NCBI RefSeq assembly: GCF_020193655.1
Contig: NZ_JADYVE010000001.1
Location: forward strand, 124,001 to 188,000
DNA from: Ensifer sp. IC3342
Lineage (GTDB): Bacteria > Pseudomonadota > Alphaproteobacteria > Rhizobiales > Rhizobiaceae
Reading direction: 5' to 3'
Length of the DNA stretch: 64,000 nt
Part shown: positions 19,146 through 28,707 of the stretch, in pieces
How the letters are laid out: the number at the start of each line of letters is the position of its first letter
Numbering within the stretch: position 1 is the stretch's first letter
Notes under the pieces: model-generated
Seen by the model: the letters and a program-made list of their open reading frames with translations, nothing else
Database searches by the model: none
Told to the model about the DNA's origin: nothing
Made by a program: the position numbers and the translations under genes

Positions 19146-19160
19146 GTTCAACATTTGTTC
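19146..19160 (+). promoter_or_regulatory. LexA (SOS) box of the Pol IV gene
   Basis: A perfect alphaproteobacterial SOS box, GTTC-AACATTT-GTTC, ending five bases before the ATG of the Pol IV gene. It lies over the predicted transcription start and ribosome-binding region, a position that would block initiation when LexA is bound. Confidence 0.85.
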
Positions 19161-22100: not shown

Positions 22101-25595
<3,495 letters not shown>

Positions 25596-25748
25596 CGTTG
25601 CACTCCGATTCCCGTTCGGAGCAGAGGATATCCCGTTTCCGGTCCTTGATGTCCAGCACAACAGCCGGAGCCACCGTCTTTTTTCAACATTGCATCCGAA
25701 GAAGCACAGGTCCACGCGGCCATGCGAAGCCGCACCGGCGCAGAAGGA

Positions 25749-25835
25749 TCACAATCCGAGCGCAATCACCGAAATGCTGGCGATGAACAGGCTCATGGAG
25801 GCGAAGGCGGCGAGATCACGAACGAAATCAGTCAT
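25749..25835 (-). CDS. 28-residue single-span membrane peptide under an SOS box
   Basis: On the minus strand an ATG at 25835 opens a 28-codon frame beginning MTDFVRDLAAFASMSLFIAS and ending ALGL, with one continuous hydrophobic helix from about residue 9 to the end. A strong GAAAGGAGCC (AGGAG 7 bases from the ATG) shows it is meant to be translated. A perfect LexA box GTTC-N7-GTTC lies 34 bases upstream (25869-25883), with a TTGACT -35-like word just beyond (25887-25892). Size, single span and LexA control match Caulobacter SidA, the SOS-induced division inhibitor, and are analogous to E. coli TisB. Homology is not established; function as a damage-induced inner-membrane peptide is inference. 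Confidence 0.7.
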   Translation of the reverse strand: MTDFVRDLAAFASMSLFIASISVIALGL

Positions 25836-25868
25836 AATATGGCTCCTTTCCGCTATTGTTTTTCTTTT

Positions 25869-25883
25869 GTTCTTTTTTTGTTC
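25869..25883 (-). promoter_or_regulatory. LexA (SOS) box of the 28-residue peptide gene
   Basis: A perfect GAAC-N7-GAAC on the minus strand (GTTC-TTTTTTT-GTTC on the plus strand). It sits between a TTGACT -35-like element (25887-25892) and the strong ribosome-binding site at about 25842-25847, the classical position for LexA repression. Confidence 0.85.
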
Positions 25884-25892
25884 CATAGTCAA

Positions 25893-26061
25893 GCAAGCCC
25901 ACATAAAAAGATCCCGCAATTCAAAGGTCATGGTTAACGCGCTGTGGCCGGGCGCCGCGGTCGCAACGCTCAAAAACCGTATGCAGCGAGTGAATCGCGG
26001 AGGCTATTCAAAATGCCTGTGAGACAAATGCCAGCAGTTCGGAGGTCGACAATCAAGCTTT
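25893..26061. other. Divergent control region between two SOS genes
   Basis: No gene is visible. This stretch separates the SOS box of the minus-strand peptide from that of the plus-strand DUF5680 gene. An open frame on the minus strand (25749-25973) is only the upstream extension of the 28-residue peptide frame and crosses its promoter, so I do not use it. Confidence 0.5.
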
Positions 26062-26076
26062 GTTCGCTTTTTGTTC
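26062..26076 (+). promoter_or_regulatory. LexA (SOS) box of the DUF5680 gene
   Basis: A perfect box GTTC-GCTTTTT-GTTC, 54 bases upstream of the ATG at 26131. It is the third exact GTTC-N7-GTTC match in this window; all three fall in 19.1-26.1 kb. Confidence 0.85.
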
Positions 26077-26130
26077 TTTACAAGCTGGCGATGTTGCGGC
26101 ATCCTCGCTCACGAAAATGGGAGCACGCTC

Positions 26131-26598
26131 ATGTTCAGCATCGAGGAACTCACCGACTTCATCGTCGAGGCGAAATCGAGGACCTATGTCGGCGGCGGCG
26201 CGGCGCTGCCCGCCTGCAGGCCCGGCTCGCGCGATCTCGGTCACCAGCGCGGCGCGTGGCGCTATCTCGACAGCTATTTTGGCGGAACGGATTTTGCTGG
26301 CCAGGAAACTGTCTGGCATGACGGCAACCCGCGCTGGGCGATGAACTACTTCGGTCGCATTATCCGTCGGGACTTGATCGATGCGGAACGAGCCGGCGCC
26401 GTCATCAAAGCTGCCCTCCAGACCATGTATCGCGACAAGCGCCATTTCCTCGGCGGCACGGAGTATCAGCACGCCTACGGTTGTTACGTCGACAGCAGCC
26501 GCGGCGCGATCGATCATTTCTCCGGACGCGAGGTCATTTTCGTCGATGGCGAAGAGGCCTACGAGCTCGATTATCGCGGCGGGCTCATCGTTCCCTGA
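26131..26598 (+). CDS. DUF5680-type protein, SOS-regulated
   Basis: A 155-residue soluble protein. Recognisable blocks are FIVEAKSRTYVGGGAA, SRDLGHQRGAWRYLDSYFGG, FAGQETVWHDGNPRWAMNYFG and VIFVDGEEAYELDYRGGLIVP, which I associate with DUF5680, a family of unknown function sometimes fused to helix-turn-helix domains. No catalytic motif is evident. The start at 26131 has GGGAG about 8 bases upstream. An upstream LexA box (26062-26076) implies induction by DNA damage. A perfect nine-base-arm palindrome (26598-26616) overlaps the end of the gene. Confidence 0.72.
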   Translation: MFSIEELTDFIVEAKSRTYVGGGAALPACRPGSRDLGHQRGAWRYLDSYFGGTDFAGQETVWHDGNPRWAMNYFGRIIRRDLIDAERAGAVIKAALQTMYRDKRHFLGGTEYQHAYGCYVDSSRGAIDHFSGREVIFVDGEEAYELDYRGGLIVP

Positions 26599-26616
26599 TG
26601 GGTCGAATCGACCCAT
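26598..26616 (+). terminator. Palindrome at the end of the DUF5680 gene
   Basis: ATGGGTCGA and TCGACCCAT are perfect arms around a single A, beginning at the last base of the stop codon. There is no T-run, so it may be a weak terminator, an RNA-stabilising hairpin or a protein-binding palindrome. Confidence 0.4.
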
Positions 26617-26689
26617 GTGATAGATATAATCAATTCTAACACGCTGAGACGCGGGCGAAAACGCACAGGTTCCGCGCCCAGCTCTGCAA
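26617..26689 (+). repeat. Decayed relative of the 17342 mosaic element
   Basis: The order of words (a GTGATAGAT-like start, CAATTCTAA, CTGAGACGCGGG, CGAAAACGCA, then GGTTCCGCGCCC) parallels 17342-17412 but the arms are diverged. It fills the gap between the DUF5680 gene and lolD. Confidence 0.4.
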
Positions 26690-26692
26690 CGC

Positions 26693-27379
26693 CTATTTCA
26701 GTTCCACGACCTTGCCGTCCTCGATCGTTACGCGGCGATCCATCAAGGAGGCGAGCTCATGGTTGTGCGTCGCAATCAATGCGGCGAGGCCCGACTGACG
26801 TGCTAGTGCCTCCATCGCCTCGAACACGTAGCCAGCGGTTTCGGGATCGAGATTGCCGGTCGGCTCGTCGGCCAGGAGAACGAGCGGCGCATTGGCCACG
26901 GCGCGGGCGATCGCGACGCGCTGCTGCTCGCCGCCGGAAAGCTCGGCCGGCCGATGGCTGGCACGGTGGCCGATGCGCATATAGTCGAGCAGAGCGGCGG
27001 CCCTCTCCGCTGCTTCCGCCTTCGGAAGGCCGGCGATCAGTTGCGGCATCATGATGTTTTCGAGCGCGGAAAATTCCGGCAGCAGGTGGTGGAACTGATA
27101 GACGAAGCCGATCTCCTTGCGCCGGATCGCCGTGCGCCGGTCGTCGCTGAGCCCGTTGCAAGCCAAGCCGTTCACGGCGACTTCGCCCGCGTCCGGATGT
27201 TCGAGCAGGCCAGCGACATGCAAGAGCGTCGACTTGCCAGTTCCCGAAGGCGCCACGAGCGCGACGGTCTCGCCGCTTCGCAGCGTGAAATCGACGCCCT
27301 TGAGGATCGGGAGGTAGGTGTCGCCTTCTCCGTAGTGCCGCTCTATGCCGGAGAGCTGCAGTGCCACACGCGCATTCAT
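26693..27379 (-). CDS. lolD: Lipoprotein-releasing ABC transporter ATPase LolD
   Basis: A 228-residue ABC ATPase driving release of lipoproteins from the inner membrane to LolA. Walker A is APSGTGKST (43-51), the Q-loop lies in [20 protein letters not shown], the signature is [14 protein letters not shown], Walker B is [13 protein letters not shown] and the switch histidine is in [17 protein letters not shown] is a LolD-type feature. It follows the LolC/E gene by 17 bases on the same strand, forming a two-gene transport operon downstream of proS. Confidence 0.92.
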
Positions 27380-27396: not shown

Positions 27397-28707
27397 TTAT
27401 TCGTACCGCAGGGCCTGCACCGGATCGAGGCGCGAGGCGCGCCAGGCTGGAAAGATCGTGGCAAGGAAGGAAAGAGCAAGCGCCATGATGACGACTGCGA
27501 TCGTCTCGTCGGCATTCATGTCCGCAGGAAGCTGACTCAGGAAATAGAGTTCCGGGTTGAAGAGGGTCGTCCCCGAAACCCAGGAGAAGAACTGGCGGAT
27601 CGACTCGACGTTGAGGCAGACGACGACACCAAGGAGCACGCCGGCGATCGTGCCGGCGACCCCGATGGCGGCGCCGGTCATGAAGAAGATGCGCATTACC
27701 GATCCGGACGTCGCGCCCATTGTTCTCAGGATCGCGATGTCGCTGCCCTTGTCCTTCACCAGCATGATGAGGCCGGAAATGATGTTCAAGGCCGCCACCA
27801 GCACGATCAGCGTCAGGATCATGAACATCACGTTGCGCTCGACCTCGAGCGCGGAGAAGAAGGTTTTGTTGCGGTCGCGCCAGTCCGTGATGAAGATCTG
27901 TCGGCCCGCCGCATCCTCAATGGGCTTGCGCAGGGAATCGACCGCGTCCGCGTGCTCGGCGAAAATTTCGATCGATTGGACCAGGCCCTCGGCATTGAAG
28001 TAAAGCTGCGCCTCCTCGAGCGGCATGAAGACGATCGTTGCGTCATATTCCGACATGCCGACTTCGAAGATCGCCGAGACGGTATAGGCCTTGACGCGCG
28101 GATTCATGCCCATCGGCGTCACATCGCCGTTCGGCGAGGTCAGCGTGATCGTGCCGCCGACACGGATCCCCAATTGTTCGGCCATGCGCGAACCGATTGC
28201 GACACCGCTTCCGGACGCAAAGCCGACCAGATCGCCGGACTGGATGTGCTCGGAGATGGACTTCAACTTCGAGAGGTCGTCGGCACGGACCCCGCGAACA
28301 AGGGCCCCTGTCGACGCGTCACCGTAGCCCTGGGCGAGAACCTGTCCCTCGACCATCGGAATGGCCATGGTTACGCCAGGTACCGCCGAAAACTTGTTCG
28401 CCAGCTCGGCGTAGTTGGTCAGCGGGCCATCGAGCGGCTGCACGATGATATGGCCATTCATGCCGAGAATGCGGGAAATGAGCTCGGTGCGAAATCCGTT
28501 CATGACCGCCATGACGATGATCAACGTCGCGACACCCAGCATGATGCCGATGAAGGAAAAGCCGGCGATGACCGAGATGAAGGCCTCCTTCCGTCGCGAG
28601 CGCAGATAGCGCCAGGCCACCATGCGCTCGAACGCGGAAAAGGGGCGGCTGGAAGGCACACCAGACTGAGCGGCAGCCTGCACCTGGTCTTCAGTCGCCG
28701 CGGTCAT
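27397..28707 (-). CDS. Lipoprotein-releasing system permease LolC/LolE
   Basis: A 436-residue inner-membrane protein with one N-terminal span ([21 protein letters not shown]), a large periplasmic domain and three C-terminal spans, the MacB/FtsX-type topology of LolC/LolE. The conserved start of the family is visible in [20 protein letters not shown], and the C-terminal signature in [20 protein letters not shown]. Only one permease gene is present, as expected for alphaproteobacteria, where a single LolC/E-type protein (LolF-like) probably forms a homodimer with LolD. It starts 18 bases after the proS stop, so coupling with proS expression is likely. Confidence 0.9.

Follow-up and report, generated by a model that had tools for sequence, protein, structure and literature searches.

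The window analysed here, a 64,000-nucleotide stretch of the genome of Ensifer sp. IC3342, carries on its minus strand a gene for a 28-residue, SidA-like peptide (MTDFVRDLAAFASMSLFIASISVIALGL) at 25749-25835, with its ATG at 25833-25835 and its stop codon at 25749-25751 as placed by translation. The gene is followed, after 153 nt and on the same strand, by dnaE, which encodes the replicative DNA polymerase III alpha subunit (22101-25595; Pfam PF07733, PF17657, PF02811 and PF14579). A Shine-Dalgarno motif (AAAGGAG, 25843-25849, minus strand) stands 7 nt before the ATG, and a similar motif is present before the start in most of the relatives printed. Positions 8-26 of the peptide (19 residues) have a mean hydropathy of 2.2, which predicts one span, and Asp, Glu, Lys, Arg and His are absent after position 8 in 80 of 81 distinct peptides; with 28 residues and one predicted inner-membrane span, the product has the build of a peptide of the SidA kind (about 29 residues, one span). 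A preliminary description of this DNA had drawn attention to the 28-codon frame (25752-25835 without its stop), its ribosome-binding site and its hydrophobic span, all of which are present as described; the interval that it gave, 25749-25892, does cover the stretch from the stop codon to the -35 word, but the gene itself occupies 25749-25835 only.

Read along the minus strand, the genes run from a frame for a LolE-type permease (27397-28707; the name is the one given to the matching neighbour in the S. meliloti annotation) through an ABC ATPase gene (26693-27379) and the peptide gene to dnaE, with a DUF5680 gene on the plus strand (26131-26598) separating the ATPase and peptide genes. S. meliloti Ak57 has a frame of 93% identity between the ATPase gene and dnaE; its peptide is identical to that of a genome of the window's own genus (G257, locus L008), which makes it very probable that the window comes from Sinorhizobium. 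The Ak57 gene table, which is known to be incomplete, has no annotated feature over this frame and lists no DUF5680 gene between the ATPase gene and dnaE. The Ak57 record itself (CP090106.1, pSymB) is 3.7 Mb long and contains dnaE and proS, and so looks like a chromosome filed as a plasmid. Searches of Pfam (at E 1), NCBIfam and PHROGs gave no match for the window peptide. A membrane peptide of 28 residues is the kind of gene that annotation tends to miss, as had been suggested for this frame.

A LexA box and a TTGACT -35 word had also been reported upstream of the frame, and both are there. The box, GAACAAAAAAAGAAC, was found by pattern search as a direct repeat GAAC-N7-GAAC at 25869-25883 (minus strand), with 33 nt between it and the peptide ATG; the -35-like TTGACT, read from the sequence, lies at 25888-25893 (minus strand). 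On the strand of the peptide gene, a scan for the sigma-70 consensus detected no promoter, and there is no clear -10. A degenerate AAAC at 25858-25861 (minus strand), phased 11 bp after the second GAAC, may serve as a third half-site. Two further boxes of this pattern deserve mention: GAACAAATGTTGAAC at 19146-19160 (minus strand, pattern search), and GAACAAAAAGCGAAC, on the minus strand at 26062-26076, on the side of the divergent DUF5680 gene, to which it probably belongs rather than to the peptide gene. A strict box precedes the ATG of the DUF5680 gene by 67-70 nt in all six loci read, and this gene, a candidate by virtue of its own LexA box, is probably another SOS gene.

The pattern GAAC-N7-GAAC is not rare by itself (the window has four occurrences where shuffling predicts 2.5, and the genome has 234, compared with 202 of a reversed control pattern), so the significance of the box comes from its position and conservation. 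Among the 30 best matches of a single-sequence search, the window's own included, every one has a strict box, 47-52 nt upstream of its ATG; and in the 101 loci where the peptide gene is linked to dnaE (see below), a strict box lies within 90 nt of the start in 88, and the other 13 have a box with one degenerate half-site. Alignment on the box by script retained 100 of these 101 loci: in 78 of them the box is preceded, at 9 or 10 bp, by TTGAC, and 11 bp after the second half-site there is AAAC in 52 and GAAC in 22, so that many of these promoters (74 of 100) would have three half-sites phased 11 bp apart. A LexA box is thus predicted in the promoter of the peptide gene.

The preliminary description had proposed that rhizobial genomes be searched for the frame together with its box, and such a search recovered both. 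Of 297 Rhizobiaceae genomes, 160 were matched by the single sequence at E 10 and 162 by a 27-member profile at E 0.1, both counts including the window genome, weak rows and paralogues; the remaining 135 genomes had no profile match at E 0.1, and when the dnaE locus was inspected in 20 of them, a diverged copy was visible by eye in six and none in 14. We read 117 loci, consisting of the best 30 single-sequence matches, seven others, and 80 picked by hand from the profile lists (all but three at E 0.001 or better; L195 and L197 were excluded as repeats of L025 and L027). In 101 of the 117, including all 30 of the best matches, dnaE lies just downstream on the same strand, at a spacing of about 77 to 656 nt (median 145). 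The other 16 lack dnaE in the stretch read: seven of them have a strict box (two with dnaE within 6 kb, five without), and nine, which we regard as paralogues, have no box. One genome (G280; loci L394, L395 and L397) holds three 44-residue peptides that start MIRDLAALASI, have neither box nor dnaE, and resemble a dispersed repeat family.

Selection acts on the encoded amino acids. Between the window sequence and seven relatives, 8, 2 and 20 of 27 sites vary at the first, second and third codon positions, the pooled pN/pS over the eight sequences is 0.16, and none of 1000 simulations gave a nonsynonymous share as low as that observed; the purifying selection whose absence would have counted against the frame is therefore present. 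It could be held that a chance frame merely sits beside a chance LexA-like match, given how common GAAC-N7-GAAC is in this genome and how close its count comes to that of the control, but this explanation, whose probability we regard as negligible, is refuted by the selection test (0/1000) and by the fact that frame, start, length, box and spacing are all conserved in 101 of the 117 loci, those linked to dnaE. The peptide gene is real, conserved and under purifying selection.

The same place in the genome is occupied in Caulobacteraceae by SidA. MipZ served to identify a first set of Caulobacteraceae, theirs being 66% identical to the PDB chain from C. crescentus (16 of 40 genomes had a match, and the next-best MipZ was 51% identical). 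A peptide of about 29 residues lies upstream of dnaE in 26 of the 30 loci read from this set, as judged by script and by eye, mostly behind LexA-type boxes. Another MipZ route to the family (53 genomes, 30 loci) was rejected, the chains it reached being at most 49% identical to that of C. crescentus. Among named Caulobacteraceae and relatives, a script found a 29-residue peptide upstream of dnaE in 76 of 80 loci, including those of Caulobacter vibrioides OR37 and DSM 9893, with a strict box within 90 nt in 65 of the 76. All 16 Caulobacteraceae peptides tested match the NCBIfam model NF033228 (cell division inhibitor SidA; cut-off 35 bits), the first member tested with 72.7 bits and the OR37 copy with 1.6e-20; SidA thus occupies the position immediately before dnaE that the rhizobial peptide has, and the two families share an orthologous locus. 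The locus tags cited for Caulobacter, CCNA_02004 for sidA (PMC10769358) and CC1926 for dnaE (PMC1839093, in a table), as given in the portions of these papers used here, would make the two genes neighbours in NA1000 as well if the tag offset near recN (CC1983 = ccna_02062) holds.

The peptides of the two families are themselves alike. Besides their length (28 versus 29 residues), single span, LexA box and place upstream of dnaE, they align without gaps from the start Met and agree at R6, D/E7, A10, F/L11, S13, F17 and V/I18. The ungapped score is 23.4 at shift 0 versus at most 3.4 at other shifts up to 6, and permutation of columns gives p 1.1e-4 (8.6e-4 with the head and the span permuted apart). 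A comparison of the rhizobial profile with the SidA profile by hhalign gives E 3.2e-6 and a probability of 88% over columns 1-19. Profile searches succeed in both directions. When 9904 frames from 110 Caulobacteraceae loci were searched with a profile built solely on Rhizobiaceae and other Hyphomicrobiales, 98 matches were obtained at E 1, all of them this peptide: 97 are on the dnaE strand and end within 600 nt before the DnaE match (L232 by strand only), and the remaining one (L245) shares 4 nt with the beginning of the DnaE match. Conversely, a Caulobacteraceae profile run on 5719 frames of 117 rhizobial loci found 55 true and no false matches at E 0.1, 91 and one at E 1, and 108 and 12 at E 10. 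The window peptide scores 6.5 bits (E 0.54) against a Caulobacteraceae-trained HMM, yet ranks first of the 1446 frames of the window. By profile comparison the rhizobial peptides are thus homologous to SidA, and the candidate identity first put forward for the frame, including the proposed alignment to SidA, has gained a shared locus, an ungapped alignment and reciprocal profile matches in its favour, though no match to NF033228.

That model does not match the window peptide or any of 27 rhizobial members at E 10, and likewise none of 10 peptides from other families and genera and none of four paralogues. Unlike Caulobacter SidA, the rhizobial peptides have a diverged C-terminal half from which W19-M20-x-C22 is missing, so the contact with the target may have changed; together with the lack of a rhizobial NF033228 match, this points to an unrecognised orthologous branch. 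The periodicity of conservation is helical over positions 5-26 (p 0.04 and 0.02) and is not significant over positions 9-28 (p 0.22 and 0.14).

Beyond Rhizobiaceae, dnaE lies downstream in 21 of 24 loci from other Hyphomicrobiales, and in 16 of these 21 the match is preceded by a strict box at 32-98 nt (L052 was read at the wrong offset for boxes). A class-wide search with the rhizobial profile was set aside: it matched 111 of 337 genomes at E up to 1, with a best match beyond the window genome of E 0.008, and none of nine matches read (L059-L067) lay before dnaE. Since these matches looked like chance, we searched by the dnaE locus instead. Among 106 dnaE loci across the class (29 and 77), about 16 show by eye a LexA box followed by a single-span frame of 28-47 residues, often with the motif (K/R)-D-x-A-(A/G)-(L/F), and the remainder show none. 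Two of these 16 (L101 and L104) are from the order to which the window belongs. The loci read were taken from the higher-scoring entries of the dnaE list and so are an uneven sample.

SidA-like peptides are also found away from dnaE. Of the nine paralogue loci without box and dnaE, five have genes for phage recombination or SSB close by and one has a repressor gene nearby: by PHROGs, the neighbours are Erf and an exonuclease at L431, RecT and exonuclease VIII at L434, SSB at L433 and the repressor at L430, while L432 was assigned by its Erf and L435 by its likeness to L434. Of 59 viral contigs that we collected through their Erf or RecT genes, eight have a SidA-like frame upstream of that gene (E up to 5e-5). 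Three of the eight (L439, L441 and L481) carry peptides that had been part of the training set and that derive from the prophages already represented there, or from close copies of these; the remaining five comprise the near copies L485 and L442 and the more distant L482, L483 and L484. These prophage-type peptides have 29-36 residues, lie upstream of Erf, RecT or exonuclease genes, and possibly are phage-borne division inhibitors. A scan of a viral collection with the peptide alignment gave 22 pattern matches and no confirmed relative, and a phage protein search with one prophage peptide returned only phage Lu11 at E 3.

The constant neighbourhood of dnaE invites the explanation that the frame is a leader, or its SOS promoter a device, tuning the level of dnaE after DNA damage, with a peptide product that is otherwise idle. 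The gene is directly upstream of dnaE, our scan found no terminator-like site between the two, and sORF25, a short frame that is translated in S. meliloti, is described in the 5'-UTR of dnaE1, with uORF roles suggested by the authors (PMC10117765, in the passages relied on here, which give it no SOS link or function). sORF25 is probably this frame, and translation in that 5'-UTR, with the lack of a terminator-like site, makes read-through from the SOS promoter into dnaE plausible. A pure leader role is nevertheless unlikely, because selection acts on the amino acids of the membrane helix, the spacing to dnaE varies widely (as given above for the 101 loci), and SidA-like peptides occur apart from dnaE, some of them in prophages; moreover, SidA, encoded at the equivalent locus, reportedly works as a protein (PMC4211646, in part).

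A LexA-controlled, tiny and hydrophobic product would also fit a membrane toxin of the TisB/DinQ type (TisB is itself LexA-controlled), which would lower the membrane potential and cause dormancy. The window peptide is of the matching size class, with one hydrophobic span and a LexA box, and DinQ is described as a single-span toxic peptide of the SOS response (PMC3567139, as far as excerpted). We nevertheless regard such a toxin as very improbable, since the charged, conserved N-terminal half of the window peptide and its homology to SidA are not expected of a generic pore, and since neither a TisB-type family model nor a known paired antisense RNA was found. The Pfam search at E 1, in a library that presumably holds TisB, gave no match, nor did Rfam at E 1 in 25300-26800, a search that an undescribed antisense RNA would escape.

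Other SOS-induced blocks to division are formed by YneA of Bacillus, SosA of Staphylococcus and SulA of E. coli. SosA is not known to be a related gene; SulA differs from the present peptide in acting on FtsZ and is absent from the window genome (no match to PF03846 at E 1). YneA and SulA are likewise described as unrelated genes, and Caulobacter DidA, although a small single-span inhibitor of the late divisome, is set apart by its description as a 71-residue, SOS-independent protein that binds the SPOR domain of FtsN (both in the portion of PMC4211646 drawn on here).

Taken together, we conclude that the gene is, very probably, orthologous to Caulobacter sidA and represents it in rhizobia, encoding a presumably LexA-repressed membrane peptide that would hold the septal complex after DNA damage. 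This reading is supported both as orthology and as likely function, and we infer from the analysis that division would be inhibited through FtsW, FtsI and FtsN. In Caulobacter, SidA is SOS-induced, resides in the inner membrane, interacts with FtsW and FtsN, and is suppressed by mutations in ftsW or ftsI (PMC4211646, in the same portion). By the proposed mechanism, LexA bound between the -35 word and the start would keep the peptide gene off until DNA damage led to RecA-assisted cleavage of LexA and hence to derepression; the good ribosome-binding site would then allow a burst of the 28-residue, single-span inner-membrane peptide, whose N-terminal half would most likely dock on the FtsW/FtsI/FtsN complex of septal wall synthesis, with R6-D7 placed at the edge of the membrane and A10-S13-F17 lined up on one face of the helix, and constriction would be held until the DNA was mended. 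The N-terminal half being kept between the families, a shared divisome contact is suggested, while the C-terminal half may have adapted to the partners of each lineage.

New here are the conserved link to dnaE, the spread beyond Caulobacteraceae and the SidA-like peptides in prophages; in the open-licence literature, to which the search was confined, we found among the papers listed no report of SidA outside Caulobacter and none of a rhizobial SOS division inhibitor. Tentatively, and at somewhat short of an even chance, we suggest that SidA is an old alphaproteobacterial SOS brake that has long formed one transcription unit with dnaE, and that rhizobial temperate phages took copies of it into their recombination operons, where these would stop host division during lytic replication. 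The Kil protein of phage lambda is a comparable case of a phage stopping the division of its host. If this is true, DNA damage would raise the replicative polymerase and halt the septum together. The conserved arrangement also prompts one to ask why the gene of the main polymerase and a division brake stay together. Rhizobia grow from one pole and become filamentous, polyploid bacteroids, so that the halting of division matters to them both for the survival of DNA damage and for symbiosis; for the SOS control of that division, a specific candidate gene can now be named.
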